A stretch of DNA of 25,943 nt from a virus (IMGVR_UViG_3300042892_002166:1-25943); one strand, 5' to 3'. Positions 9,323 through 25,943 are shown, counted from the stretch's first letter. The notes: a model not told the origin generated them from the letters alone. Made by a program: numbers and translations.

Positions 9323-9898
9323 TTACTTGAATGGTTCACCGGATATCCAACCAACCAACGAGTGACGAACACCATGAATGATAGGCGTGACCTGATGAGG
9401 ATTGAACGATGGGAAAATTATCAAGTCACCCATACCAGATGAAACTTTAGTACCCTCATGTCCCATAAACTTCAGCTCACCACCACTATAAGATTCACCA
9501 TCATCAAGCTGAACAGATATTGAGAGCTTTCGGATAGAGAATTCGTTAGGTCCAAAGTCTTGATGATAGTCATAGAAGTCACCCACATCATACCGGGCCA
9601 ACTGAAAGGGTTCGAGCATTCCACACAAGCTAAAACGATAGCGAGCATTGTTACATGATTGGACGAATTCACTAATTTTTTCGTAAATCCAAATTGTGTC
9701 TGCGCTACATTCCAACCAACACACCTTGGACTTCCTGATGGCCACATCCTCCACACCCTGACCTCCCCCAACTTGAGCATCAACACCATCAGAAAACATG
9801 GCCTTGATACGTTCACATTCTTCACGAGAAAAAACACCTTCAAAGAAAGTCCATTGAGCGTACTCGGATAGGGGATTCGGTCTATAAGCATATTGCAT
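9323..9898 (-). CDS. 2-oxoglutarate/Fe(II)-dependent hydroxylase (PKHD type)
   Basis: A 191-residue oxygenase of the prolyl-4-hydroxylase-like (PKHD) type, which couples 2-oxoglutarate decarboxylation to hydroxylation of a protein or nucleotide substrate. The facial triad is present: H112 and D114 in YDYHQDFG, and H168 in FNPHQVTP. R178 in HGVRHSL should bind the 2-oxoglutarate carboxylate. The start at 9898 is chosen because a perfect GGAGG lies five bases upstream and the length then matches phage relatives; longer starts at 9967 and 9976 exist. It is the only reverse-strand gene here and converges on the gene ending at 9309. Phage members of this family are common but their substrates are generally unknown. 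Confidence 0.9.
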   Translation of the reverse strand: MQYAYRPNPLSEYAQWTFFEGVFSREECERIKAMFSDGVDAQVGGGQGVEDVAIRKSKVCWLECSADTIWIYEKISEFVQSCNNARYRFSLCGMLEPFQLARYDVGDFYDYHQDFGPNEFSIRKLSISVQLDDGESYSGGELKFMGHEGTKVSSGMGDLIIFPSFNPHQVTPIIHGVRHSLVGWISGEPFK

Positions 9899-9993
9899 GA
9901 GGGCCTCCAGTATTGTGATATCGAAATCGTACACCAAATATATGCCATGGAGTAAGAGTTTATACATTTGCGCCACGCTTCCGATAGCGGGAT
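9899..9993. promoter_or_regulatory. Divergent intergenic region
   Basis: Ninety-five bases separate the two divergent genes starting at 9898 (-) and 9994 (+), so promoters for both directions are expected here or within it. A 14/18 match to the palindrome at 7386-7403 lies at 9911-9928. On the + strand TCCGATAG (9980-9987) matches 6 of 8 positions of the sigma-28 -10 element, but the -35 (TATACATT, 9961-9968) is weak and the start site would coincide with the ATG at 9994. No convincing sigma-70 promoter is seen. Confidence 0.35.
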
Positions 9994-10303: not shown

Positions 10304-10537
10304 ATGAAAACACTCAAAGGTAAAGTTTTGTGGTTCGACGTAAAAAAAGGATTCGGATTCATCAAAGGTGAAGACGATGTTGATTACTTCGCCCACTTTT
10401 CAAAAATACAAGCTCCTTCAGGAGAGTTTAGACTTCTTGAAGAAGGCGACGATGTTGAATTCGAGCCATTCATGGCCGCACGTCAAGATGGAAAAGAGAA
10501 GCCACAGGCGAAGATGATTAAATCTATAAAAGCATGA
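10304..10537 (+). CDS. Cold-shock domain protein (CspA family)
   Basis: A 77-residue single cold-shock domain protein that binds single-stranded RNA and DNA and melts RNA structure. Both RNA-binding motifs are present: RNP1 as KKGFGFIK (14-21) and RNP2 as DYFAHFSKI (27-35). The opening KGKVLWFDVKKGFG is diagnostic. It is slightly longer than CspA in the loop before the last strands (MAARQDGKEKPQ). An AAGGAAA precedes the ATG, and a TGTTCG-N8-CGAACA dyad (10261-10280) lies in the short leader. It is followed within nine bases by the sigma factor gene, so the two are likely co-transcribed. Confidence 0.95.
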   Translation: MKTLKGKVLWFDVKKGFGFIKGEDDVDYFAHFSKIQAPSGEFRLLEEGDDVEFEPFMAARQDGKEKPQAKMIKSIKA

Positions 10538-10545
10538 GGTAGAGA

Positions 10546-11229
10546 TTGAACACGACAGAGCAGCGAGCAATTATAAAATGGATTAAAATTGTCGTTCTCC
10601 GTACGTTGAAAGAAAAGAATCTTACACGGCTTGATGTCAACACTCTCATTTCCGCAGGAATGTTGGGTTACTCACAGGCCAGAACTAGGTTCGATGAATC
10701 TCGAAATGTTAAGTTCAAGACTTTCGCAGAATATCGAATCAAAGGCGCAGTTCTCGATGAAGTCAGAAAGATGATTGGGGACGAGAGAGCAAAAACTCCA
10801 AGAGCAAGACGAGTTGAAGAATATGACTACGAGCTTAAGTCTGACGATAATGATATGATAAATAATCTCGAATCGGGTATGGACGTGGATTCAACACTTG
10901 AAGAGTTGGGCCTGAACAATAGAGATGTCGAAATAATCCGTTGTCGGATTGAAGGCTACTCGATTCGGGAGCTTGCTAGAGAGTTTAAATTCAGTGAGTC
11001 AAGAGCAAGCCAAATTCTTTTTAGAATTAAGAAAACTCTACACGCTTACTACCAGAGTCAGTTCTCGTTAAAAACAGTTCAGTGCCCACTATGTAACAAA
11101 GAGAATTTAGTCTCCGATAAGTCAAAAGAATTCCGTTGCGACCATTGTGATGAAAAATTGAAATTTGAAAATGGGCTAATCGTCCATGTTATAGAGGTTG
11201 AAGATGACCAAGAGATTGAACATTGCTGA
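10546..11229 (+). CDS. FliA/WhiG-lineage sigma factor with C-terminal zinc ribbon
   Basis: A 227-residue sigma-70 family factor that redirects RNA polymerase to particular promoters. Region 2 has the hallmark of the sigma-28 lineage (LGYSQARTRFDESRNVKFKT, then RIKGAVLDEVR, 50-75). Region 4 is the helix-turn-helix DVEIIRCRIEGYSIRELAREF through SRASQILFRIKKTL (127-165). Region 3 is poorly conserved and the linker is acidic. After region 4 there is an added zinc ribbon with C180/C183 and C198/C201 (CPLCNKEN...FRCDHCDEKL), not part of normal FliA. The start is a TTG with GAGG six bases upstream; no alternative lies before the conserved region. It overlaps the next gene by 26 bases. It probably drives middle or late phage genes. 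Confidence 0.92.
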   Translation: MNTTEQRAIIKWIKIVVLRTLKEKNLTRLDVNTLISAGMLGYSQARTRFDESRNVKFKTFAEYRIKGAVLDEVRKMIGDERAKTPRARRVEEYDYELKSDDNDMINNLESGMDVDSTLEELGLNNRDVEIIRCRIEGYSIRELAREFKFSESRASQILFRIKKTLHAYYQSQFSLKTVQCPLCNKENLVSDKSKEFRCDHCDEKLKFENGLIVHVIEVEDDQEIEHC

Positions 11230-14200
11230 ATTTGCCTCCTCATTGCTTGATGAGACCATCGAAAAAGGTCATAAGCTTGAAGAACGTAAGTTATTAAAAT
11301 CCAAAAAAGAAAGACAGGAACTCCGTAAGGCCCTGTCTCACAACCCATTCCAACCACACGACATGACGGGTGAATCTCCGTATTACAATCCGTACAAGTT
11401 TGATGAAACCGGAACCGGATGGATGCCTCTACCTGCGAACGAATGGTATGATATGGGCAAGAAACCAGAGATTGATAACTACCTCACCACCAAACAGTTT
11501 TACGGTGAGGCCGGACCTCAATCAATGATTGACCAAACCTTAAATCGTTTCGCACAGCTCCGTAGGTCACTAACACCAGACCTAATCAAAGCGGAACCAC
11601 AAACACCAAAACCAAGCGCAGGTGGGAACAAGGCCCCAATTGGAACAGTCCATACATACAAGGATGGGAACCGTTACAAGAAGTTTGCTGAAGGCGATTG
11701 GAGACCTCTAGCTGGCCTTGAGACAGGAGACATGAGAGACCGATTGAAGTCCCCTCAACACGGAAAGAACGCAAACGAAACCCTCGAATCGCACCACAGC
11801 TACACTCAAGGTCTCCATAAAGACATCGACACACATGCTGAAAAACACATGAAGATATCTGGCCACATCAAAGAAAAGCAAAAACAAGAAGACACTAAAT
11901 CTTCGGTCAAGAAAGATACGCTTGGAACGCTTAAGACAGTTCTTGAGAAGATGAACGGTGGGAAGCTACCTCCTGAACTTGAAGAACACTTCAACGAAAA
12001 TTCTCAGTCACACCTTCCTCCTGAACTCGCAAAAAAGATTCAAAAGAAAGAAGCAGGCAAGGGTCACGAGATATCTCTCTCAAAACAAGAACTCACCACT
12101 CTCCTCAAGAGCGGCAAGTACGCACTCATCAGCGCAGGTAAAAACCCTAAGCTTGAAGAGGGAATGGAAGAGACCGCAGTTGCACAACGCTACGAAGACC
12201 TTCGTGGAGAGTTGAAGCAAGGTGGATATGCCTTCACGAAAGTGAAAGGACACTACGGTGGGGAAGAGGATTCTTTCCTCGTTATGGTTCACGACCATGA
12301 TGATGACCACATGCTTGAGCTTGGAAAGAAGTTCAACCAAGATAGCGTAATCGTTGCAGACGGTGGAAAGCAGAAGATGGTTTACACTACCGGAAGCGAT
12401 GAAGGACAAGCGCACGAAGGTAATGGATTCAAGGAAGTAGGCGAAGACCAACAAGACTTCTATTCGGAATATCCTACGTCAGATGGACAGGTTATGAAGT
12501 TCGCCTTGAACTTCGACTTTGATACCAAGAGCGACCACAAAGACAGCGCAGACAAAAAGCCAGAGAAGAAGGAAGCCGCCGGGAAGAAGCCGGAATCGAC
12601 CGGGAAGACTCCGGCAAAGAAGAAGACAGGCGTTTCTTGGGAAGACGTTGCCAACGCATACAAATCACTATTCGATGGAATCGAAGGCGACTACTTGATG
12701 AAGTCAGACGACCTAATCAAGGGTGGCGTACCAGTTGGAACGGTCCACATATATACAGATGGAATCAAGTACAAAAAAATTACTGACAATCCTTCGACAT
12801 GGAAGCCAGTTTCAGGCGCAGGAGTTGGCGCACGTCCAACGGTTGCAGGTGGGATGTCAGGTGGACGAAGAGAAGACCACTCTGAAAAAGTTGAAGCGGC
12901 CATTGCAGAGAAGTTAGAGAAAGTTCAGAAGAAAGAAGAGAAGAAGAAAAAGATGGAGAGCGTGAATCATGAAGATGTATTCAACGTTGAACATCCTCAC
13001 TCTCTTGTCAGCGTGGACCAACTAAAAGGTGCCGAGAGACAGACAGAAGAAAAGCTTCGCTCTAAAGAGAAGTTTAGAGAAACGCTCGATGGAAGTTACG
13101 ACAAACGTGCGCCACTTGACGTGCATAAGATAAACAACAGAGATGGAAGTTATCACTATGCAGTTGGAGATGGTAATACCACATTCCAGATGCTCAAAGA
13201 ACTTGGACTTAAGAAGTTTCCAGTAAACATCATAAGCGAGATGGACGAGAAAGATTGGAAGCCAGTTGGCGAGCATAAGCGCAAAGAGAAGAAAACAATT
13301 GCACCCAAAGATGCAGGCAAGCCAGATAACAGAATGGGACCACCCCCGCCTGAAAATGAGCGTTTCCTTAAGCCCGGTAAAGATGTGACAGAAGACGATG
13401 TGAAAGCATTTATTGAGAAGTTTAAGCACGACTATGTTGAGCTTCAAACTCTCGCTCACGACTTGAAAGCGGTAGGCGCAGACAACTTCGGTAACAGATT
13501 GAAGGACGTTGATTCACTCTTAAAAAAGATGAATGGAAGAATGCAAGAGCGTTCGCTTAATACAGTGAACGATGCGATAGGCACACGAGCTTTAGCATCT
13601 TCTCCTGACAAGCAGAAAGCAATCCTTAAACATATCGAAGACAACTATGCAGTTGTTGAGCGTGATGACTTTTCTGATAGTGGCAGACCTGACGGCTACC
13701 GAGCTATGCACATTACGTTTCGCTCAGATAACGGCAAGCTCGTTGAGCTACAGATTAAAACTCACATGCAGCAAATATATTCGGGTTACACGCATGATAA
13801 CTTTTACAAACCACCCAAACACCTTGAAGACCAATTTTCGAAAGATACTGATGGTCTGATGAAGAACAAAGAAGTGGCGAAATATCTCCAAGATGTTTCA
13901 AGCTATCTGAACGAGTTGGACAAGGGCGGCGAAGACAAACCTGAGAACCGTCCTAAAGAGCCAGAGCTTCTTGTAAAAGAGAAGATGATGTTTCCTTGGG
14001 AACAGGTTGTTAAGGCCAAGTCAGGCGACCTGTCAGACTTCACAAAAGAAGAAGACGACAAGACCGCAGACAGAGTTAAGAAGTTCGAACGTCAAGAGCG
14101 TGGTAAGGTGAAACACTTCGTCGTAGTTCGTGACGAGAATAAAGCGGTCAAAGAGATTAAAGAATTCAACACGTTTGAAGATGCCAATAAACACCTTAAA

Positions 14201-14305
14201 AAACAAAAAGGCGATAAGAGCGAGCGAGTAGCAGGTTACTCCCACTCTAAAGAAGAATTCTTACAAGTATTCTCTGAATATCGTCCCGAAGGATGGGAAG
14301 CATGA
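11204..14305 (+). CDS. Multidomain protein with DUF3293-like, ParB-like and RelA/SpoT-like domains
   Basis: A 1033-residue protein started at an ATG with GAGG upstream. Approximate domains: an N-terminal charged region; a 27-residue GTVH-Y-DG--YKK motif near 148 that recurs near 512; a DUF3293-like region (290-400, with EEDSFLVMVH and LELGKKFNQDS); a Lys/Pro-rich linker; a ParB/sulfiredoxin-like domain (600-680, with RAPLDVHKI and DGNTTFQMLKELGLKKFPV); and a RelA/SpoT nucleotidyltransferase (725-900). The last shows NDAIGTR, DGYRAMH and VELQIKT, matching the DxxGxR, GYRSxH and ExQIRT motifs of (p)ppGpp synthetases. The array resembles the polyvalent proteins of phages. Its position before the portal suggests a head-internal or delivered effector. 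Alarmone synthesis or tRNA modification (toxSAS-like) is possible, not shown. Confidence 0.85.
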   Translation: MTKRLNIAEFASSLLDETIEKGHKLEERKLLKSKKERQELRKALSHNPFQPHDMTGESPYYNPYKFDETGTGWMPLPANEWYDMGKKPEIDNYLTTKQFYGEAGPQSMIDQTLNRFAQLRRSLTPDLIKAEPQTPKPSAGGNKAPIGTVHTYKDGNRYKKFAEGDWRPLAGLETGDMRDRLKSPQHGKNANETLESHHSYTQGLHKDIDTHAEKHMKISGHIKEKQKQEDTKSSVKKDTLGTLKTVLEKMNGGKLPPELEEHFNENSQSHLPPELAKKIQKKEAGKGHEISLSKQELTTLLKSGKYALISAGKNPKLEEGMEETAVAQRYEDLRGELKQGGYAFTKVKGHYGGEEDSFLVMVHDHDDDHMLELGKKFNQDSVIVADGGKQKMVYTTGSDEGQAHEGNGFKEVGEDQQDFYSEYPTSDGQVMKFALNFDFDTKSDHKDSADKKPEKKEAAGKKPESTGKTPAKKKTGVSWEDVANAYKSLFDGIEGDYLMKSDDLIKGGVPVGTVHIYTDGIKYKKITDNPSTWKPVSGAGVGARPTVAGGMSGGRREDHSEKVEAAIAEKLEKVQKKEEKKKKMESVNHEDVFNVEHPHSLVSVDQLKGAERQTEEKLRSKEKFRETLDGSYDKRAPLDVHKINNRDGSYHYAVGDGNTTFQMLKELGLKKFPVNIISEMDEKDWKPVGEHKRKEKKTIAPKDAGKPDNRMGPPPPENERFLKPGKDVTEDDVKAFIEKFKHDYVELQTLAHDLKAVGADNFGNRLKDVDSLLKKMNGRMQERSLNTVNDAIGTRALASSPDKQKAILKHIEDNYAVVERDDFSDSGRPDGYRAMHITFRSDNGKLVELQIKTHMQQIYSGYTHDNFYKPPKHLEDQFSKDTDGLMKNKEVAKYLQDVSSYLNELDKGGEDKPENRPKEPELLVKEKMMFPWEQVVKAKSGDLSDFTKEEDDKTADRVKKFERQERGKVKHFVVVRDENKAVKEIKEFNTFEDANKHLKKQKGDKSERVAGYSHSKEEFLQVFSEYRPEGWEA

Positions 14306-15051
14306 GCAACAAGGTGACTGAGTTTTACATACTCGTGGAAGCGGAAGAATTGGATAAGTCCGACAAACCATTCCACGGTTACAACAAGAAAAAGCATTCC
14401 CCTACAGGTGGATTAAATTCTGATTTCAGAGAGAAGTATAATCGTGAAAACGGTTCAAATCTTCAGGCCCCTGTCACAGAGAGCAAACCCACAGGAAAGA
14501 AAGCGGCAAGAAAGCGTTCTTTCTGCGCTCGTATGAGCGGAGTGAAAGGGCCAACTTCAAAAGAAGGTAAGCTCACACCGAAAGGCGCAGCACTCAAACG
14601 ATGGAAATGTAAGTCTGAAGACGAAACCGAAACTGACCTCGGGGACTTTGGTAAATCTGATTTATATGCACAAATAGACATCATGAAAGGCGAAGGCGAA
14701 GGGACTCGTGGTGGAGTCATTATAGGCCATACGACGAGTGGTAAGCCGATATATAACTCTCACGGAAATAAAGGTCATAAGGAGTTTTCACAGGAAGACC
14801 ATCAAGATGCTTATGATACACACAACCACAAGAAGAGAGAGGCGACTGACAAGTATCACTCACAACACAACGGAGATGGAACTTATTCAGAGAAACACGC
14901 AAAGAATAAGAAAAAACTTATGAAGGAAATAGAGCATCATCACACTCACATGGCGAGACATAGAGAAAGTGCAAATCCAACGCCCAAACAGGCCACACAA
15001 AAAGATTGGGATAGAGAAGATAGAAAAGCTGAAAAAAATAGAAACAAGTAA
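14302..15051 (+). CDS. Basic protein with DUF6321-like domain
   Basis: A 249-residue very basic protein whose ATG overlaps the previous stop (ATGA); an in-frame ATG three codons earlier lacks a spaced ribosome-binding site. Residues about 30-105 (HSPTGGLNSDFREKYNRENG, then RKRSFCARMSGVKGP and LTPKGAALKRWKC) match a motif I know from marine phage proteins as DUF6321. The second half has GHTTSGKPIYNSHGNKGHKEF and EDHQDAYDTHNHK, a His-rich motif also common in phage head-region proteins. The tail is Lys/Glu-rich. Its charge would suit DNA binding inside the head; the function is unknown. Confidence 0.75.
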   Translation: MSNKVTEFYILVEAEELDKSDKPFHGYNKKKHSPTGGLNSDFREKYNRENGSNLQAPVTESKPTGKKAARKRSFCARMSGVKGPTSKEGKLTPKGAALKRWKCKSEDETETDLGDFGKSDLYAQIDIMKGEGEGTRGGVIIGHTTSGKPIYNSHGNKGHKEFSQEDHQDAYDTHNHKKREATDKYHSQHNGDGTYSEKHAKNKKKLMKEIEHHHTHMARHRESANPTPKQATQKDWDREDRKAEKNRNK

Positions 15052-16254: not shown

Positions 16255-18051
16255 ATGGGTTTTATCAGAGATGCACTTTCCAAGTCAGTAGAGTTCGTGC
16301 AGGAAGAAATACTTCCTCTACGAACCGACTTGTATAAGGCAGGGATTCTCACACCAGAGAAGCAGGCGTTCGAACAAAAAGCAAATCTTGTTGACCCTTA
16401 CGGTTACAATAATGCCGGACTTGGTTATAAAGAAAAGTATGCACTCCTCGATTATTCAAAGTGTAGACAAATCACTTACGCCAATCCAATCGTCGCATCA
16501 GTTATTCAAACTCGTTTAAATCAAGTTGCCGCATTCTGCACACCTCAACCGGACAAGTTCTCAAACGGATTTAAGGTTGGACTTCGTGATTTAAAAGCGA
16601 AGCCAAACGAAATGCAGAAGAAGAAGATGCAAGAGCTTGAAGAGTTCTTGATGGGATGTGGAGTTCCTGAAAGTTTCGATGACACTCCTGAAAGGAATCG
16701 TCGTGACTCGTTCGAAACATTCATCAGAAAAATCACTCGTGACTCATTAACATTCGACCAAGTAAACTTCGAAGTTACACCACGCCTGAATGGAATACCG
16801 TACAGCTTTACAGCTATCGACGCAGGAACCATTCGTCGTATTCCAGATGACAAAGAGAAGTCAGACCAAGGTGGATTCTTTGATTCGAAAGGACAAGGCG
16901 CACTCTTCGCACAAGCGACAAGAGAGAGCAAACAGTTCAGAGAGTTCAAACCAAAACATCCTAAGTTCTGTCAGGTTATCAATGGAGTTATCACAACCGT
17001 ATTCGATGAATGGGAGATGTGTTTCGGCGTAAGAAACCCACGCACAGATATCCTTGCATTCGGTTACGGTTACTCAGAAATCGAAATGCTTGTGGCCACA
17101 ATCACAGCACACATGAATGCTGAAACCTACAACAGAAAATTCTTCTCACAGGGTTCTTCTATCAAAGGTATTTTAGCGTTCGAAGGTTCAGTACCACCGG
17201 ACCAATTAGAAGCCTTCCGCAGACAATGGTATGCACAGGTCACAGGTGTGAACAACGCTTGGAGAACACCTATCGTTGCTATGGGGAAAGATGGAAAGCT
17301 TAACTGGCAATCTCTCCACTCGAACAACCGTGAAATGGAATTCGGAAAGTGGATGGAATATTGTATCAAAACTATTTGTGGAGTCTTTCAAATCGACCCA
17401 CTAGAAATAGGATTCGATATTTCAAAAGGTTCTTCAGGTCAGTCAGGTGGAGGCGGTGGACTTGGTAATGGACAACAACAAGAGAGAATTCGTTTCTCTC
17501 AAGATAAAGGTCTCAAGCCTTTACTGATGTTCATTCAATCAATGATTAACGACTATATTATTTATCGTATCGACCCAGATTTTGAATTCCGTTTTTGCGG
17601 TCTCAACATGGGAACAGATAAAGATGAATTAGATAAACAAGTTCAACAGGTAAAATCTTTTAAAACAGTGAACGAAATTCGTGCTGAACAAGATTTAGAA
17701 CCTCTCCCAGACTTCGACAAGATAAAGAATCCGGGTGACGTTGTTCTTGACCCTTCTCTAATTCAATTCATCACAGGTCAAATGCAAGCTGCTCAACAAG
17801 CTCAACAACCAATGGGGCCTGATGGGCAACCACTTCCACCGGGAGGCGCACCGGGTTCTCCAATGGACGCTCAACCGGGCGAAGAAGAATCTCCAATGGA
17901 CGATGAAGGTCAAGGAGAGCCAGAGCCGGACTATGAAAATATGAGTCTTGAAGAGTTGGAAGCTGAACTTGGAAAACTCAATCAAGCTGAAGATGGCGCA
18001 GACAAAAAGAAAGCAGTTACCAAGTCTCTCGTTAAGGAGTTTGAGTTTTGA
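16255..18051 (+). CDS. Portal protein
   Basis: A 598-residue portal, which forms the dodecameric ring at one head vertex through which terminase pumps DNA and to which the tail joins. Diagnostic parts: an N-terminal segment with YANPIVASVIQTRLNQVA; the basic middle; and a long conserved block near 345-425 with WQSLHSNNREMEF, KTICGVFQIDPLEIGF and a Gly/Ser/Gln loop before ERIRFSQDKGLKPLLMFIQSMIN. The last 90 residues are a flexible Gln/Pro/Glu-rich tail, as in many portals. The next gene starts within its stop codon (TTGA). Confidence 0.93.
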   Translation: MGFIRDALSKSVEFVQEEILPLRTDLYKAGILTPEKQAFEQKANLVDPYGYNNAGLGYKEKYALLDYSKCRQITYANPIVASVIQTRLNQVAAFCTPQPDKFSNGFKVGLRDLKAKPNEMQKKKMQELEEFLMGCGVPESFDDTPERNRRDSFETFIRKITRDSLTFDQVNFEVTPRLNGIPYSFTAIDAGTIRRIPDDKEKSDQGGFFDSKGQGALFAQATRESKQFREFKPKHPKFCQVINGVITTVFDEWEMCFGVRNPRTDILAFGYGYSEIEMLVATITAHMNAETYNRKFFSQGSSIKGILAFEGSVPPDQLEAFRRQWYAQVTGVNNAWRTPIVAMGKDGKLNWQSLHSNNREMEFGKWMEYCIKTICGVFQIDPLEIGFDISKGSSGQSGGGGGLGNGQQQERIRFSQDKGLKPLLMFIQSMINDYIIYRIDPDFEFRFCGLNMGTDKDELDKQVQQVKSFKTVNEIRAEQDLEPLPDFDKIKNPGDVVLDPSLIQFITGQMQAAQQAQQPMGPDGQPLPPGGAPGSPMDAQPGEEESPMDDEGQGEPEPDYENMSLEELEAELGKLNQAEDGADKKKAVTKSLVKEFEF

Positions 18052-18260
18052 AAGTAAGAATTGAAGGAACTCAAGAAGAACTTGAGGAGAAACGATTCAC
18101 GCTAGTCAAGGCCATGGCAGGGAAACAATATGACGTTTCCCTTTCCCCCGTCTACAAGCCGCCATTCTATGTCGCTCAAAAAGAGATGATGGACTATTGG
18201 AATGATAAGTATGACGAGATGCTTCAAAACATTATGAAAGAGATTGATGAGGTTATATGA
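18048..18260 (+). CDS. Small hypothetical protein
   Basis: A 70-residue protein starting at a TTG that overlaps the portal stop by four bases (TTGA), with GGAG upstream, and ending in ATGA with the next gene. This makes a tight portal-small protein-Nudix coupling. It begins with a short strand (MKVRIEGTQEEL) and ends in a helix (MMDYWNDKYDEMLQNIMKEIDEV). No family is recognised. Confidence 0.65.
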   Translation: MKVRIEGTQEELEEKRFTLVKAMAGKQYDVSLSPVYKPPFYVAQKEMMDYWNDKYDEMLQNIMKEIDEVI

Positions 18261-21200
18261 ATTTCGATATCGCAATTTATAAGTCGGAAGGCAGCGTGAT
18301 GTACGTTTCATCAATAGCTGTTATGAATGGCACGAAGATTCTCATGGGCGTTCGTCGTGATTCTAAGAAGTGGACCTTGCCGGGTGGTGGGGTTGACCCT
18401 AAAGAAGATAGGGCCGAAGGCGCAATCAGAGAGTTGTTTGAAGAAGCGGGAATTAAAACTGACAAGAGCAAGCTAACCCATTTAAGAACTCAAACAGTTT
18501 CAGGGAATGCCGGAGTTAAAATAACCGTTGCCGCATACAAGTACGAGTGGGACGGACAAACCGCAACATCAAAGAACGACCCCGACGAAGAAGTGGCAAA
18601 GTGGGAATGGATTGAAACTAAAGGTGGACTTCCAGAACATGTTCGAAACAACCTGAACTCTCCGAAGAACGTAGTGCTGCAAGCAATGGGACTCATTCAT
18701 GACGAAACCAAACAGGAAAAGCCACACAAGTACAAGCGCAAGTACAAAGGGCCAAAGGGCGAAATGATTTACATTTATAAGGGTGAAGATAAAGTTGTAT
18801 ATGACAAAAAAGAAATAGAGAAAGTCATAGACGAAGATGAAATAGAAGAACAGAAGGGTGGAGTTGGTTCAGGCCAACGTGGACATCATACTGCCGATTC
18901 TCACGCTGAAGCTGTTCATGAACAGATGAGACAACCGGACACCGAAACAGCTTGGGATGAATCAGTTGAACGCAAGAGAAGTATATTTTACGTTTCACCT
19001 GAAAGTAAAAACGAACAAAGCGCAACGGAAGAAAATATCAGACGCAAAGAAGAAGAGTCGTGGAAGCGAATGATGGCAGAAGCTATGAAGATGAAGTCTG
19101 CTAAGAAATCATTTGCACTTGTCATTGACCTTTTAAAATCAACTGGCACACATAAGTACCTTAGAAAGTATAAGCGTGGAGCGAAGTGGATTTACGTTTA
19201 CTATGAGCCGGGAAATAAACCAAAGCGAATGGAAGACCGTGCGATGGAAATTCTTACTCGCATGGCAGAGCTTGGTGACGAAAGAGCTAAGAAAATTCTT
19301 GAAAGTGTCGAGGAACATCCTGAAAATGTTCTTACCGCTCTCAGAGAAGAAGCACGAGGCACAGGCGTACACGCTCGTGATGCAAAGAAGATGCTCGCAA
19401 ATGACTATGGTATTGACCATGACGAAGAACAACTTGAAGAAAGGTTGATGCCGGGAGTGGTCGCTCCTCCTAGTGATAAGATTCACCAAGAGATGACCCC
19501 GGAACAAAAAGAACATCTAAAAGAAGCACTCAATATTCATCTAAAGAAAATGTTCGACCACTTGGAGAGTTCTTCATATAGAACTGACGTACACGCTGTT
19601 AAAATGCGTGAAGCGGGAATTACAAAAGAAGTTCTCACAGATGGCGTACTCGATAAGCCAAATATGGCAGAAGCATTTAAACAGCTTCATGAGAATTTAA
19701 AGAAGCTCGACGTTGCACATACCGGACTTAACTCAAGCGCAGGAATGAACGAGCAACATCAAAAGTCATATCCAAACATGCTATTCAACGAATCGTTGAA
19801 ACACATGGAGAACAAAGGACACCTGACAGCGGGCTATACCGATGCACATAAGCGTACTCGTGAGAACGCACCAACAAACCACGAACTCACTCCGGTTGCA
19901 GCACTCCAAGAACGTCTTGAACAACAAGCAAGAGAGAAGAGAGAACGTGAAGCTGCCGCCGCACTTGCAGCGAAACAATTAGCAGCACAACAACGTAGAG
20001 AACGTGCCGAACGTGAGCGTATTGAAGCTGCACGTTTGGAAGTTGAGAACAGAGAAGTTTTAACTACTCATGGTGAGACCGCAGACAAGATGATGGAATA
20101 CTTCGGCATACGCACAACAAGCGAAGCTGAGAAAACAAAGATGAAGGCGAATCTTTGTAAGGGTATTCAGAGAGTTTTTGGAACCACATTTAAGTGGGAC
20201 AAATTTGAAAGCTCGTTAAACCCAAACCCAACTGCCAAAACCAAAGTTAAAGTTAAGAAGAACTTCCTCGATGGACTCATAAACTTCGGTCAAAGTGGAA
20301 GCACATCTGGCACATTCGAGGCCCGCTTTGATATCATGGCGAATGATACAGGCGAGTATATTACATACGCCGATAGAAAAATCACAAAGAACCCAGACGG
20401 TTCAATCAGTTGGTATAACGGATATTTTAATCGTCCAGAAAACGATATGCTCGAACGCTACAACGGAATGGGCAAAGGTCTCTATGGAGGCGTTGAACGT
20501 TTCCTGAAAGACTTAACATCAACATGGACAGGCACCGCCAAAGAAAACACCCGCATCCACATGTCTGCGGCAAACCATGGTTGGGGAGATGGACTTAAGG
20601 GCGCACTCGTATGGTCTAAGCACTACTACGACTTCGCCAACCCAGATGAGTATGTTGGAAATTGGAAATCAACATGGAAGAGTAACTTCAAACGCATGGC
20701 CGACAGGTTGAGCCTTCCCGAGGAACAACAGGCAGAAGTTCGTGCAAGAATTGATAGTTGCAGATATCCAAACGACTTCGTTCGTCTTGGAGTTATCGTT
20801 GATAAAGCGACAGGTCTCAAAGCATTAGATAAGAGAGCGTTCGACTTCGACTTTAATAAAGTATTTGCCTCGAAAGGTCATTGCGATATTGGTGAGCTTA
20901 TCTTGATTGATTCAACTTCAAGTTTTTCTGGTATGAATTACATCAACAAAACTGATGCACGTTGGGGAACTTTGAACGAGCGCAGAACTCATTATTACAA
21001 TACCAACAACAATCTCGTTGAACCTGCACAAATCTCTCTAACTTCTGGAAGAAGACCTAAGCCAACTTCAACTCCCACACCTGCGCAGACAAGTCCGGCA
21101 ACATCGGCCACCTCGCCTCCGGGCATTCTTAATCAAAGCAATCCTCATGCTCAAGATGCTATAAACATGGCAGACAGATGGAGAAGGTCGAGCCGTGGTG

Positions 21201-21379
21201 GAACCCTAACTGTTGGACCTGCCAGACTGAAGAAGATGATAACCTTATGGCCATCACTACGCCTCGATGCTTTCCTGATTCATACAGGGTTGTCAGCGGC
21301 CCAACAAAGACGTATTACTAAGGTCCGTAAACAGTATGTTCTACACCTAGCAGGTAGAGCAGAAAATCCGTTCGCTTAA
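18257..21379 (+). CDS. Large multidomain protein with Nudix hydrolase and GNAT-like domain
   Basis: A 1040-residue protein. Residues 1-150 form a Nudix hydrolase with a complete Nudix box, G44 to I66 (GGVDPKE, then REL-FEEAGI); such enzymes cleave nucleoside diphosphates linked to other groups. Two HKY-x-RKY-x-G--IY-Y motifs follow (157-175 and 299-316), with GGVGSGQRGHHTA (201-213) between them. The middle includes a long Arg/Glu/Ala-rich helix (549-603). At about 685-795 a probable GNAT-like domain has NGMGKGLYGGVERFL and later NHGWGDGLKGALVWSKHYYDF. This type is frequent in phage polyvalent proteins but I assign it by memory of the pattern. A Pro/Thr/Ser linker (933-955) precedes a basic tail. 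It is coupled to the gene upstream by ATGA. Confidence 0.85.
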   Translation: MNFDIAIYKSEGSVMYVSSIAVMNGTKILMGVRRDSKKWTLPGGGVDPKEDRAEGAIRELFEEAGIKTDKSKLTHLRTQTVSGNAGVKITVAAYKYEWDGQTATSKNDPDEEVAKWEWIETKGGLPEHVRNNLNSPKNVVLQAMGLIHDETKQEKPHKYKRKYKGPKGEMIYIYKGEDKVVYDKKEIEKVIDEDEIEEQKGGVGSGQRGHHTADSHAEAVHEQMRQPDTETAWDESVERKRSIFYVSPESKNEQSATEENIRRKEEESWKRMMAEAMKMKSAKKSFALVIDLLKSTGTHKYLRKYKRGAKWIYVYYEPGNKPKRMEDRAMEILTRMAELGDERAKKILESVEEHPENVLTALREEARGTGVHARDAKKMLANDYGIDHDEEQLEERLMPGVVAPPSDKIHQEMTPEQKEHLKEALNIHLKKMFDHLESSSYRTDVHAVKMREAGITKEVLTDGVLDKPNMAEAFKQLHENLKKLDVAHTGLNSSAGMNEQHQKSYPNMLFNESLKHMENKGHLTAGYTDAHKRTRENAPTNHELTPVAALQERLEQQAREKREREAAAALAAKQLAAQQRRERAERERIEAARLEVENREVLTTHGETADKMMEYFGIRTTSEAEKTKMKANLCKGIQRVFGTTFKWDKFESSLNPNPTAKTKVKVKKNFLDGLINFGQSGSTSGTFEARFDIMANDTGEYITYADRKITKNPDGSISWYNGYFNRPENDMLERYNGMGKGLYGGVERFLKDLTSTWTGTAKENTRIHMSAANHGWGDGLKGALVWSKHYYDFANPDEYVGNWKSTWKSNFKRMADRLSLPEEQQAEVRARIDSCRYPNDFVRLGVIVDKATGLKALDKRAFDFDFNKVFASKGHCDIGELILIDSTSSFSGMNYINKTDARWGTLNERRTHYYNTNNNLVEPAQISLTSGRRPKPTSTPTPAQTSPATSATSPPGILNQSNPHAQDAINMADRWRRSSRGGTLTVGPARLKKMITLWPSLRLDAFLIHTGLSAAQQRRITKVRKQYVLHLAGRAENPFA

Positions 21380-21389
21380 GGAGATTGAA

Positions 21390-21605
21390 ATGGAAGATTT
21401 AGATAGTCTTTGGGAAGATGATACGGAAGAATCATTTATCAACTTATTGAAGTGCGGTTATTCAAAGCCGTTATTCGAAAGAAGCGTCAAAGTTCTTTAT
21501 GGAGATGATTGGATGGCAGAAGCCGAAGTCATTTGCAAGGACAACCCAGAGCTTAAAGGATTGTTGAATAAGTATGTTGACCAAAGCGCAATTAAAGAAG
21601 ATTGA
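21390..21605 (+). CDS. Small acidic hypothetical protein
   Basis: A 71-residue acidic protein with AAGGAG six bases before its ATG. It reads MEDLDSLWEDDTEESFINLL, then GYSKPLFERSVKVLYGDDWM, and is mostly helical. It overlaps the MuF-like gene by 32 bases. No family is recognised; a small head-assembly partner is a guess from position. Confidence 0.65.
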   Translation: MEDLDSLWEDDTEESFINLLKCGYSKPLFERSVKVLYGDDWMAEAEVICKDNPELKGLLNKYVDQSAIKED

Positions 21606-22563
21606 AGAAATCATAAAGAAGCATTATCTCGCTTTAACATTTGAGGCCCTCGGAGAGAGGGCCTTGACCGAAGAAGAGATTGAGTTGCTTCAAAAACATA
21701 AACTTCTCAGAACAGGCGTTCGACATTTTACAGGCGACGCATACACGCTTGGAAGAATAGTTTCATCACTTGATAAGGCCAAAGCAAAGCCCATCACATA
21801 CGAAGCGATGAAAGAAGCTGCAAAGAAAATCCCACGCACCACAGTTGAAAAGAAATCAATCGAACACTCCTCTGCCCATGCCGGAGAGTATATTAAAGGT
21901 ATTGGCGCAGACACCGCAAAAGACTTTAGAACGTCTGTTGCTCGTGCAGCACAGGAACAAGTTCGTAGAGAAGTTTCAACCGCCGTGGCCGACCGACTTA
22001 CGATATCGCAACTGAAGTCAAATCTCATGGCGAGCATTCAAACACGAAAGCGTGATTGGCTTAAAGTGGCCTCAACCGAGATGCAGGACGCTATTCAAAA
22101 TGGAGTTCATGACGAGATTAAAAGAACATCTCCTGAAGGGGACGATGCGCTCGTTTATAAAAGACCTTCTCCGAACGCTTGCAAACATTGTAAGAAGCTC
22201 TATCTAAAATCCGATGGAGTCACACCAAAAGTATTCAGACTGTCTGCGCTTTATCCAACCAACATCGGCCTCAAATCAAACGATTGGCAACCGACCATTG
22301 GGCCTGTTCATCCTTTCTGTCAGTGTCAACTTTCTCCTGTCCCGAAGGGGTGGGGGTTCAAAAAGAAAACTGTCGCTGCCGAAAGCTTTGGACGTTACAA
22401 AGCAGGGCAAGTGATAGACGATATTACTACACTAACCCCAGATGAGCGTTTGAAGACACGTCAAGAAGCTGTCCTTGCCTTTACCGGAGAGGATATGGAA
22501 GAGGATATGGATAAGAGCTTACCCTTTTCCGAAGAGGACGATGTCTGCGAATGTGATTATTGA
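21574..22563 (+). CDS. MuF-like head morphogenesis protein
   Basis: A 329-residue minor head protein of the Mu gpF/SPP1 gp7 type, which assembles with the portal and may enter the host with DNA. The N-terminal half is helical. The core has DWLKVASTEMQDAIQNG (161-177), then KRPSPNACKHCKKLYL (C203, C206) and GPVHPFCQCQLSPVPKGW (H246, C249, C251), the usual cysteine/histidine set. A C-terminal acidic tail ends in DVCECDY. The ATG at 21574 lies inside the previous gene with only a distant AAGGA, so coupling is likely. Position after the portal fits. Confidence 0.85.
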   Translation: MLTKAQLKKIEEIIKKHYLALTFEALGERALTEEEIELLQKHKLLRTGVRHFTGDAYTLGRIVSSLDKAKAKPITYEAMKEAAKKIPRTTVEKKSIEHSSAHAGEYIKGIGADTAKDFRTSVARAAQEQVRREVSTAVADRLTISQLKSNLMASIQTRKRDWLKVASTEMQDAIQNGVHDEIKRTSPEGDDALVYKRPSPNACKHCKKLYLKSDGVTPKVFRLSALYPTNIGLKSNDWQPTIGPVHPFCQCQLSPVPKGWGFKKKTVAAESFGRYKAGQVIDDITTLTPDERLKTRQEAVLAFTGEDMEEDMDKSLPFSEEDDVCECDY

Positions 22564-22574
22564 TTGGAGAATGT

Positions 22575-24929
22575 ATGGATTTTGACCTCGTTAAAGCTCG
22601 CCCGCACAAATATGTAAAGAGAACCGGAACTCCCGGCCACTACAAATACTGGTACAAGCTCGCTGATGGCACTTTGTCCACATTGGATGATGAGGCTCAA
22701 AAGGCTGGCCGTAAAGAACACCTTCAAAGATTAATCGCCGCTCGCCTACATGGTCATCATACGATGGACCGTGAAGCAATGCTCAATGAATCTGGTATTC
22801 ATAAAGATGCAGCGGGCGCAGATGATAGAGCAAAGAGAACCAAAGCAAGACAGAATCTTCGTGGTTACGAAGATGCTTTTTTCAAATTAGGAAAAAGAAA
22901 GTTAATAGCTGAAGGCCTGAACCCAGAAATCTATTCTCGTGAGGCGATTCTTAAGCGTGGTCACGACTTCGCTGAACACCACATGAAAGAAGGTTCGCAT
23001 GGTGATGTAAACCATTCTGGTTACGTCGATACTATCGGCGATGACCATGTTGCGGTTGAGAGAGTTGTAAACAGAACCGCTCGTCGTGGAACTCGTGCTG
23101 CCACTCCTGCTCCTGCCACTCCTGCTCCTGCCGCTCCTGTGAGAACCGCAGTTGAAGCGACCCAAGCTGAAGCAGAAGGCGTTGGACAAAGAGCGAACGA
23201 AAGAGAACTTGAAACACTTCGCACAGAACTCTCAGGAATGGGAATCAATCTTGATTCTCCTGCGGAAGCTGCACCAACTCCAAGTCCAAACTTTCAAAGA
23301 GATTTGGAAAGAGTTCGGGAAGCTGCCGACCGAGCATCGACGACAAGAAACAAAAGAAGAACTCGTGCTACTCCACCACCTACAGAAGCCGCTGCCGAAA
23401 ACCCTGAGATGACAAGTCTCAGAGGTCGTCTTGACGAAGTGTTTGCTGACCGTGATGCGAGAAGAGTAGAAGATAGAGAGGTTGATTCAGCGATTGCTGC
23501 TCAAGCTGCTCCCGAAGCACCCACTCCTGCGGAAACACCAGAACAGATGGTTGCTCGCCTGACACAAGAGAACGAGAGACTCCGGGCAAAGCTCGCAGCG
23601 CAGACAAGGACTCCGGCGGCTCCTGTTGCCGAACAGCCTACGCCAGTTACAACTACTGCCGAACAAAAACAAGCTCTTAGAGCAGCAGCCCAAAGAGCCA
23701 AGGCACTTGCCAGAGCGATTGGACCAGATGCTCCCGCCGCCAGAGAGATGGCCGCTGCCGACCCAACTTTTGCTGCCGACGAAGCTCCAATTCGTGAAGC
23801 AATTGCCCGTCAGGCATCAGGTAAGAATCCATACCTCGAACGTGCGAAAGAAATTTTCGAAAGAGTAGCTCCACATATCAAGCCACAAAACAGATTATCG
23901 TTTCAGCATTTTTTAAATTGCATGGATGAAGCTGTCGGTGGAAGGCCATGGGCCGTTGGCGATGCTATGGATGAAAGCAGAGTTAAAGCACTCTACGTTT
24001 CCGGCAAGACAGATGAGATGCTCGATTGGTCTTCTAAGACGGTTGGTGGAAGAAAAGTACAGGGCCTTAAAGATGTTATGACTACATATCAGGGACTTTA
24101 TCACGACATAAAAGAAATTCTAGGGAACGCTCCAATCAATCCTGAAGTTGAACGTATGAAGCGTGGGTTCGCCAGAAAGCAATTCGAAAGAATGCGTCCA
24201 TACATTAAAGACCAATGGCATCTTGCAAACCCAAATGCTCCTGCTCCGTATCCGACATTCGATGATTGTAAATCATGGAACGAGTTTGGCGGTCGTCCAT
24301 CTTGGGTTTCTCCGCAAGCGAGAATGGCAATTCCAAAAGAAGTGTTTGATGCCGCTCCAAAAGATGCGAATGGGAAAGTACAACTTCCTCCGGGTTGGAT
24401 GCCAATTCATCTTTCTCCTCTTTGGAACTTTGCATGTCAGAAGCAATCCGACTACTCGGCACGTCCTTCATCAAACGAAGTAAATGGTTCAGGAATTAAT
24501 CTCGACCCATCAAGAGATTTGCGCTCACACATCATGAACGCTTTAAGAAAATATGTTCAGGCCCGTGGTGGAGCGGAACAGCTTATCGACATCCCTTCAT
24601 CAAAGCTTCCTCGTGGTATTTCTCACGCAGACATCTTTAAATCGTTTGCTGAAGGCGACCTTTCAGAAGCCACGATGAGAAGAGTTCTTTCAAATAAAAT
24701 CATCGACCCTGTTGCCATGGCTCCTTTTGTTGAGGCAGAATTACAGCCTAAAGAAGTCAAGAAATCATGGGTTCTCGTAACTGATTTGAGAATGCCTCCT
24801 CCACCTAAAGTGGAAGAAGCCCTAGTAAAATCCGAAACAGAGAGAGCCGAAGAGTTGAGAAAGTCTCAGCTCATACATGCTATTAAGGTCAAGCGAGATA
24901 AGTTGGCCAAAGCAATTGTAAGAGGTTGA
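22575..24929 (+). CDS. Large coiled-coil, Ala/Pro-rich head-module protein
   Basis: A 784-residue protein. The ATG at 22575 has GGAGA five bases upstream; a TTG at 22560 is less likely. The N-terminus has the HKYVKR---GHYKYWYKL motif seen also in the Nudix protein. Residues 60-165 include HHTMDREAMLNESGIHK and GKRKLIAEGLNPEIYSREA. Residues 175-425 are Ala/Pro/Glu-rich with coiled-coil pieces (RELETLRTELSGMG, VARLTQENERLRAKLAAQ). The C-terminal 350 residues are more globular (RLSFQHFLNCMDEAVGGRPW, LPPGWMPIHLSPLWNF). No enzyme motif is recognised. It may be an internal head or ejected protein. Confidence 0.8.
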   Translation: MDFDLVKARPHKYVKRTGTPGHYKYWYKLADGTLSTLDDEAQKAGRKEHLQRLIAARLHGHHTMDREAMLNESGIHKDAAGADDRAKRTKARQNLRGYEDAFFKLGKRKLIAEGLNPEIYSREAILKRGHDFAEHHMKEGSHGDVNHSGYVDTIGDDHVAVERVVNRTARRGTRAATPAPATPAPAAPVRTAVEATQAEAEGVGQRANERELETLRTELSGMGINLDSPAEAAPTPSPNFQRDLERVREAADRASTTRNKRRTRATPPPTEAAAENPEMTSLRGRLDEVFADRDARRVEDREVDSAIAAQAAPEAPTPAETPEQMVARLTQENERLRAKLAAQTRTPAAPVAEQPTPVTTTAEQKQALRAAAQRAKALARAIGPDAPAAREMAAADPTFAADEAPIREAIARQASGKNPYLERAKEIFERVAPHIKPQNRLSFQHFLNCMDEAVGGRPWAVGDAMDESRVKALYVSGKTDEMLDWSSKTVGGRKVQGLKDVMTTYQGLYHDIKEILGNAPINPEVERMKRGFARKQFERMRPYIKDQWHLANPNAPAPYPTFDDCKSWNEFGGRPSWVSPQARMAIPKEVFDAAPKDANGKVQLPPGWMPIHLSPLWNFACQKQSDYSARPSSNEVNGSGINLDPSRDLRSHIMNALRKYVQARGGAEQLIDIPSSKLPRGISHADIFKSFAEGDLSEATMRRVLSNKIIDPVAMAPFVEAELQPKEVKKSWVLVTDLRMPPPPKVEEALVKSETERAEELRKSQLIHAIKVKRDKLAKAIVRG

Positions 24930-25267: not shown

Positions 25268-25943
25268 ATGGATTTTAAACAGAAGAACTTTTTCGTTGGA
25301 GAGGACACATTTCGTGTTTGGCTTCCTGAAGTCGCATTCATAGAGAAATCCGAAGACAACGACAATCATAATTCCCGCAAAATCAAAGGCATCATGTCTA
25401 CCCAACGGAAAGACCGTCAGGGTGAGGTTCTTTTATCTAAAGGTTTGGACTTTGAAGAGTTCCTTCACCAAGGCCACTTCAATGACAATCATTCTCAAGA
25501 TACATCTGCAATCATAGGCTATCCAGAATCAGTTCAATACCATAACGACCTCTCATCATTCGGAGTGAAAGCTCCGGGTTGGACTTGCGAGGGTTATGTT
25601 CTTAAAGGCACTAAACGTGCTGATGCTATTTGGGAACTTGCAAGAGCATTACAAGATGTTCCAAACAGAAAGCTTGGCTTCTCTGTTGAGGGTAAAGTTT
25701 CTCGTCGTGAAGATAAAACAATTAAAGAAGCAAAAATCAGAAACGTAGCTATCACTAATTGCCCGGTCAATACAGATTGCACATGGGAAATTTTTGAGAA
25801 GTCGTTTCATGATTCTGATATGGCGAAGTCTCTTATGGCCGGTGGGATGGGACAAGTTCTTGCTACCGAGTCGCTTGATTCAGACGTGAAGAAAGTTCTT
25901 CAAAACGCAGACAAAAAAAAGAAATCAAAAGTTGAAGCCCTCA
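25268..25943 (+). CDS. Prohead protease (XkdF-like), 3' end outside the window
   Basis: The frame is open from an ATG with AGGA six bases upstream to the right edge, giving 225 codons so far. It matches phage prohead proteases, serine enzymes that process scaffold and head proteins during maturation. The pattern is KIKGIMSTQRKDRQGEVLLSK, then GLDFEEFLHQGHFNDNH (H75 probable catalytic His), then LGFSVEGKV (S139 probable nucleophile) and EAKIRNVAITNCPVNTDC. A charged Lys-rich stretch follows, as expected before a fused scaffold segment. The major head protein should follow downstream, outside this window. Confidence 0.88.
   Translation, partial: MDFKQKNFFVGEDTFRVWLPEVAFIEKSEDNDNHNSRKIKGIMSTQRKDRQGEVLLSKGLDFEEFLHQGHFNDNHSQDTSAIIGYPESVQYHNDLSSFGVKAPGWTCEGYVLKGTKRADAIWELARALQDVPNRKLGFSVEGKVSRREDKTIKEAKIRNVAITNCPVNTDCTWEIFEKSFHDSDMAKSLMAGGMGQVLATESLDSDVKKVLQNADKKKKSKVEAL

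Follow-up and report, generated by a model that had tools for sequence, protein, structure and literature searches.

A Nudix domain on a conserved C-terminal unit with a GNAT-like domain in the head-gene cluster of uncultivated phages

The window analysed here is the whole of a 25,943-bp virus record (IMGVR_UViG_3300042892_002166), which is probably a fragment. It carries a head-gene cluster (Table 1) in which ORF 18257-21379, on the plus strand, runs without interruption for 1040 codons, opening with ATG and closing with TAA. The portal protein encoded upstream is approximately 40% identical to portals of the SPO1 group (Herelleviridae), and the MuF-like and protease genes are related to those of the same group as well. 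In the Herelleviridae phage LysYB1, however, the portal gene is followed directly by the protease gene, whereas a multi-gene block lies between the two in the window. The original prediction had coupled the ORF to the portal gene; its position within the head-gene cluster agrees with this, but the two genes do not directly adjoin, as a 70-aa ORF (18048-18260) intervenes. Elsewhere in the window are genes for a MazG pyrophosphohydrolase (2024-2422), a cold-shock protein (10304-10537) and a sigma-70-like protein (10546-11229), along with a 2OG-Fe(II) oxygenase gene (9323-9976, Pfam 1.2e-13) on the minus strand, opposite to its neighbours. Cold-shock-like and sigma-like ORFs are likewise found upstream of the large proteins in the related contig L014. 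The border motifs HKYxRKY..WxYxY, GTxHxYxDGxxYKK and GGxxxGHTxSGKPIY are common to the large head-cluster proteins of the window and its relatives. They sit, in the window, in ORFs 18257-21379, 22560-24929, 11198-14305 and 14293-15051, and the motif scan found none of them in the portal or protease genes.

Table 1. Genes, domains and motifs in and around ORF 18257-21379 (window coordinates)
Feature	Position	Strand	Basis
Large protein with S-AdoMet-lyase-like (12098-12487) and RelA/SpoT (13463-13912) domains	11198..14305	+	Pfam 6.9e-8 and 3e-13
Portal protein, SPO1/Herelleviridae-like	16255..18051	+	Pfam 2.9e-23; about 40% identical to portals of the SPO1 group
Small 70-aa ORF between portal and Nudix genes, 4-nt overlap with each	18048..18260	+	84-aa ORF at the equivalent place in L005
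Nudix cargo plus constant C-terminal unit, 1040-aa polyvalent-type protein	18257..21379	+	Open frame; full-length relative, 33-36% identity
Nudix domain, residues 17-146 (Pfam core 20-120)	18305..18694	+	Pfam 4e-13, PHROG, PDB Nudix hydrolases 4e-7
Complete Nudix box, residues 44-66 (Gx5Ex7REUxEExGU)	18386..18454	+	Sequence; intact in 32/34 complete distinct relatives
First, weaker KYxRKY/hairpin-like copy, residues 157-176 (HKYKRKYKGPKGEMIYIYKG)	18725..18784	+	Read from sequence; missed by the regular expression of the motif scan
HKYLRKYKRGAKWIYVYYE motif, residues 299-317, opening the constant unit	19151..19207	+	Motif scan, shuffles; 80-100% conservation at most positions across 11 proteins
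Constant C-terminal unit, residues 299-1026	19151..21334	+	Own profile HMM; present in 11/11 slot proteins with the unit essentially whole
GNAT-like C-terminal domain, residues 584-916, subtype ctd1	20006..21004	+	Profile comparisons, AF2 pLDDT 80, Foldseek
R734-x-x-G-x-G739, GNAT motif-A-like P-loop	20456..20473	+	Sequence and model
Conserved C-terminal tail, residues 960-1026	21134..21334	+	Invariant W975, R990 and F1006 in the constant-unit alignment
MuF-like head morphogenesis protein	21574..22563	+	Weak PHROG head-morphogenesis match 0.011; family HMM vs Herelleviridae gene 3e-61
Second large protein, also starting PHKYVKRTG	22560..24929	+	Kept at the same place in relatives
Prohead protease-like ORF, running off the window	25268..25943	+	Family HMM vs phage LysYB1 procapsid protease 4e-50

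The Pfam NUDIX family matches residues 20-120 of the ORF 18257-21379 protein with 50 bits (4e-13; cut-off 21.1), and the PHROG nudix families concur. The Nudix box, which the original prediction had described as complete, is indeed so: it reads G44-GVDPK-E50-DRAEGAI-R58-E59-L-F-E62-E63-A-G65-I66, with no position missing. The full pattern was found in 32 of 35 distinct sequences, or in 32 of the 34 complete ones, as one of the remaining three is truncated by a contig end. Both exceptions (EEAN in L040 and REC in L053) depart from the pattern at one residue each and retain the acidic residues. An active site substituted in all relatives, the finding on which the prediction was to be given up, is therefore not what is observed, and the sequence points to a real Nudix domain that is probably catalytically active.

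Regarding its substrate, the closest curated NCBIfam profiles include those of RppH and MutT-type enzymes; every match lies far under the family cut-off, and a substrate assignment by this route failed. Among solved structures, plant Nudix hydrolase 1 and diphosphoinositol polyphosphate phosphohydrolases are the best matches. ADP-ribose pyrophosphatases are characterised by a proline 15–16 residues past the Nudix box, and Ap4A hydrolases by a tyrosine 16–18 residues past it. At positions 15 and 16 the window protein has V and S, and none of its fused relatives from the genomic slot described below possesses a proline there; at the positions of the tyrosine signature it has S, G and N. Both signatures are absent.

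The gene order portal / small ORF / Nudix-type protein / MuF-like protein / second large protein / protease is kept in approximately 15 related contigs, several of which are incomplete, and the place of the Nudix-type protein in it is referred to below as the slot. One of these contigs encodes a full-length 1040-aa protein sharing 33–36% identity with that of the window, in the same gene order. A search of 50,697 phage records with the whole protein yielded Myxococcus phage Mx1 alone, matched through its Nudix part, and tblastn of the C-terminal domain against the same records gave no match. In L040, the slot is occupied by a stand-alone 162-aa Nudix and the constant C-terminal unit is absent; the unit is therefore not always required.

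In these uncultivated phages, the genes for portal and protease appear to contain inteins. Insertions with intein features were found in the portal genes at L027:4620-7718 and L040:344-2263 and in the protease genes at L019:13840-15459 and L027:15980-17620; they start with C and, where seen to their end, finish with HN before S or C. The portal insertion of L027 matches Pfam Intein_splicing (5e-14) and LAGLIDADG (5e-8), and the intein match of the L019 protease insertion is weak (1e-3). A stretch of about 30 residues is common to the protease tail and the capsid-like gene that follows the protease (L005:14304-14747, L018:16551-18017 and similar), possibly a shared maturation cleavage site; the Nudix protein showed no such stretch.

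Two motifs of the HKYxRKY type, helical stretches, a charged coil and a conserved tail are found beyond the Nudix domain of the window protein. Starting at the last HKYxRKY motif and ending with the protein, a unit recurs in all 11 slot proteins that have it essentially whole, with lengths of 622–806 aa (mostly about 620–740, with 806 in one protein) and of 504 aa in L005. The relatives were collected partly with this unit as query, and its recurrence is therefore favoured; likewise, the profile HMM was built on 11 relatives, so that the window score of 6.9e-196 is by construction. The motif pattern used for the unit allows T at the first position, since the motif of L029 begins with T. In its form HKYxRKY...W(V/I)Y(V/I)Y, the motif occurs 19 times among 134 proteins from 19 contigs and not once in 200 shuffles; as some of these proteins are related, the occurrences do not count as independent, and the pattern itself was drawn up from examples already seen.

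While the C-terminal unit is constant in this lineage, the cargo preceding it changes. It is a Nudix domain in eight of the 11 proteins (window, L001, L005, L014, L018, L019, L027 and L029), of which L027 additionally carries Pfam LPD1, a ‘large polyvalent protein-associated domain’. In L022 the Nudix is replaced by RelA/SpoT and SNF2 domains, and L020 carries SNF2, a HEIGH metalloprotease-like segment, DUF5661 and DUF6321. Nothing recognisable stands ahead of the unit in L065 (2124-4169), where the edges of a Nudix domain are joined in frame (...MKVASVAVLD-KMGLQKS...); the Nudix core looks to have been deleted in frame in this single 4.2-kb metagenomic contig. Other cargo missing on short contigs is not readable as loss. 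A tree of the portals, with Herelleviridae taken as outgroup and several weak forks, places the Nudix-less members among the Nudix-bearing ones, and the divergence of Nudix and portal, measured as identities, is correlated (r 0.49; equally high in 56 of 5000 permutations). Based on this placement and this correlation, the Nudix domain looks ancestral in the slot and seems to have been lost or replaced subsequently, at least twice by the most parsimonious count, the starred branches of the tree alone being compatible with one event.

The constant unit includes the region near residue 740 for which a GNAT-like fold, and with it an added acyltransferase, had been predicted. The segment NGMGKGLYGG (N736-G745) begins within R734-Y-N-G-M-G739, which fits the GNAT motif R/Q-x-x-G-x-G/A. 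In the window protein itself, this region gave no match to any Pfam family, GNAT included. Profile comparison with hhalign connects the subtype ctd1 (window, L001, L027 and L029) to a sister group, ctd2 (probability 95%, E 2.5e-8), and to a wider phage set, A9 (91%, E 9e-7); ctd2 and A9 match with 99.8% and E 3.8e-28, a link that is partly built in because A9 was gathered with ctd2 as query. Up to four of the 23 A9 members match a Pfam GNAT family (5.9e-5 at best), and the ctd2 profile also matches the tail of L001. An AF2 model of ctd1 from 13 sequences reached a pLDDT of 80, compared with 64 for a first, two-sequence model, and shows the order strand-helix-three strands-helix-strand, with R734-x-x-G-x-G opening a long central helix, as in GNATs. 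Nearly all top Foldseek hits in the PDB are GNATs, but none reaches significance, with E-values of 0.036 (first model) and 0.091 (second) at best and low TM-scores; the strongest structural matches are predicted structures of uncharacterised SPO1-group proteins, from Bacillus phages JL (2.6e-7) and CP-51 (9.6e-7).

Judged from the profiles and the model of residues 584-916, a GNAT fold is likely, in line with this part of the prediction. The expected acyltransferase activity is doubtful, because the region belongs to a constant unit whose sister subtype lost the acyl-CoA motif: no motif A was seen at the corresponding place in ctd2. Within ctd1, the full pattern is present in the window (RYNGMG) and L001 (RYDGMA) only, and it is altered in L027 and L029, with K as the first residue in both and S as the last in L027. 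According to our reading of the alignments, the position taken by Tyr in many GNATs is apparently Trp here.

The Nudix protein had also been placed, together with a RelA/SpoT-like protein, in a set of delivered nucleotide-acting enzymes. A RelA/SpoT and an S-AdoMet-lyase domain do occur in a neighbouring large protein, but a SAM lyase is not nucleotide signalling, and the set is loose in other respects as well. Among solved structures, the RelA/SpoT domain (13463-13912) is closest to FaRel2, a tRNA-targeting (tRNA-modifying) toxin, and the window domain may therefore be of toxin type instead of an alarmone synthetase. Moreover, Nudix and RelA/SpoT do not always co-occur, and an obligatory pair is ruled out by L022, whose slot has RelA/SpoT where the Nudix would be. 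L001 possesses a SAM-lyase domain without a RelA/SpoT match and L005 the reverse, a distribution that is module shuffling, as in polyvalent proteins (PMC5512222).

The fusion of a Nudix enzyme to a large head-cluster protein was originally called unusual. Precedents have been published, namely Nudix domains fused to MuF, portal and protease in phages, for which packaging and injection were proposed (Iyer et al. 2022, PMC9503650), and polyvalent proteins with predicted injection, whose described modules include GNATs, RelA/SpoT and SNF2, with a mention of NUDIX (Iyer et al. 2017, PMC5512222); the Nudix fusion itself is therefore not new. Like polyvalent proteins, the window protein is large, combines unrelated globular domains (Nudix and GNAT-like) in one polypeptide and is encoded in late structural gene surroundings, between the portal and MuF-like/protease genes, and its slot relatives carry shuffled modules shared with them (SNF2, RelA/SpoT, metalloprotease-like, DUF5661, DUF6321 and LPD1). 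Two GNAT families are described in that work. The window lineage differs in its constant C-terminal unit with changing N-terminal cargo. The Nudix fusions of PMC9503650 are likewise joined to head-cluster proteins, but their partners are MuF, portal and protease, whereas the partner in the window is the GNAT-like constant unit. They were described as T4 NudE-like, whereas the window Nudix resembles T4 NudE at the Nudix box only: the family HMM gave no match, and BLAST aligned 32 residues round the box.

Among the isolated phages of the collection, Mx1 alone gave a recognisable match, and a more distant one. Its protein WNM70333.1 (1479 aa), encoded near the major capsid gene, unites a Nudix domain of approximately 41% identity with GNAT and ART-PolyVal domains; in contrast to the window protein, the Nudix is in the C-terminal half and the constant unit had no match at the threshold used. 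No virion proteomics was found in the literature for Mx1 nor, by titles and abstracts, for Nudix fusions. A constant part with exchangeable enzymatic parts, encoded in phage head clusters, is also the plan of MuF polymorphic toxins, in which the constant MuF part is N-terminal. The window lineage shares this plan, but its constant part is C-terminal and the MuF-like protein is encoded by a separate gene; Pfam found no MuF domain inside the ORF 18257-21379 protein.

We consider it probable, on the whole, that ORF 18257-21379 encodes a polyvalent protein, whose Nudix cargo on the constant unit would be packed in the head, injected and active early; the window protein is probably one of several enzymes delivered in this manner into the bacterium. 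The sequences themselves show the domain content, the intact Nudix box, the conserved slot, the exchange and loss of cargo and the GNAT-like homology; packaging, injection, the substrate and a carrier role of the constant unit are inferences that go beyond them. The protein would be produced together with the head proteins and most likely be packaged into the prohead close to the portal, with the constant unit (the C-terminal ~740 residues: HKYxRKY motif, helices, charged coil, GNAT-like domain and tail) bearing exchangeable enzymatic cargo. After injection into the host with the phage DNA, the Nudix would hydrolyse, early on, a nucleoside-diphosphate-linked compound, such as a host alarm nucleotide, an ADP-ribose/NAD derivative or capped RNA. 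More tentatively, the C-terminal part might be a true carrier, a GNAT fold largely stripped of its acyl-CoA site and turned into a packaging or delivery module that brings Nudix, RelA/SpoT, SNF2 and metalloprotease into head and cell, with a polarity reversed relative to MuF polymorphic toxins.

Another explanation, which we regard as rather unlikely, is that the gene exists mainly for the constant unit, as a protein of head assembly or of the head interior, with the Nudix either acting in the infected cell late in infection or being an undelivered accessory. The location between portal and protease genes and the above matches of the C-terminal domain to predicted SPO1-group structures are consistent with such a role, as are a related gene (EalM132_00060) located ahead of the portal gene in EalM132, a phage of the Herelleviridae, and the partial overlap of the wider family with a PHROG named minor head protein. 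However, the SNF2, RelA/SpoT and metalloprotease-like cargo of the slot is of the kind typically found in polyvalent proteins for which injection is predicted (PMC5512222), and the Nudix box stays intact over large divergence. It is improbable that the domain has a housekeeping role, clearing oxidised or surplus nucleotides, and is fused by chance to a late protein: RppH and MutT-type enzymes are indeed among its closest profiles and plant Nudix hydrolase 1 is its best solved match, but the profile scores all lie far under the family cut-offs, and there is no evident reason for a sanitiser to be kept in the portal-protease slot on a large constant unit. That an artefact of assembly or frame explains the fusion, conceivable for one metagenomic contig, has a negligible probability, as this is refuted by the same fusion on independent contigs, including that of the 1040-aa relative, and by further Nudix-bearing members.

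New in this work are the phage lineage, its slot, and a GNAT-like C-terminal unit that stays constant while its cargo is exchanged. A Nudix enzyme is thereby tied to a defined place among the head genes, where the enzyme in front varies and the unit behind it does not. Under the polyvalent reading, the idea of multiple injected enzymes becomes concrete, in asking whether the constant unit serves as a packaging signal and which host molecule is the first to be destroyed by the Nudix. If that reading is true, the constant unit would be a marker for further injected phage effectors.
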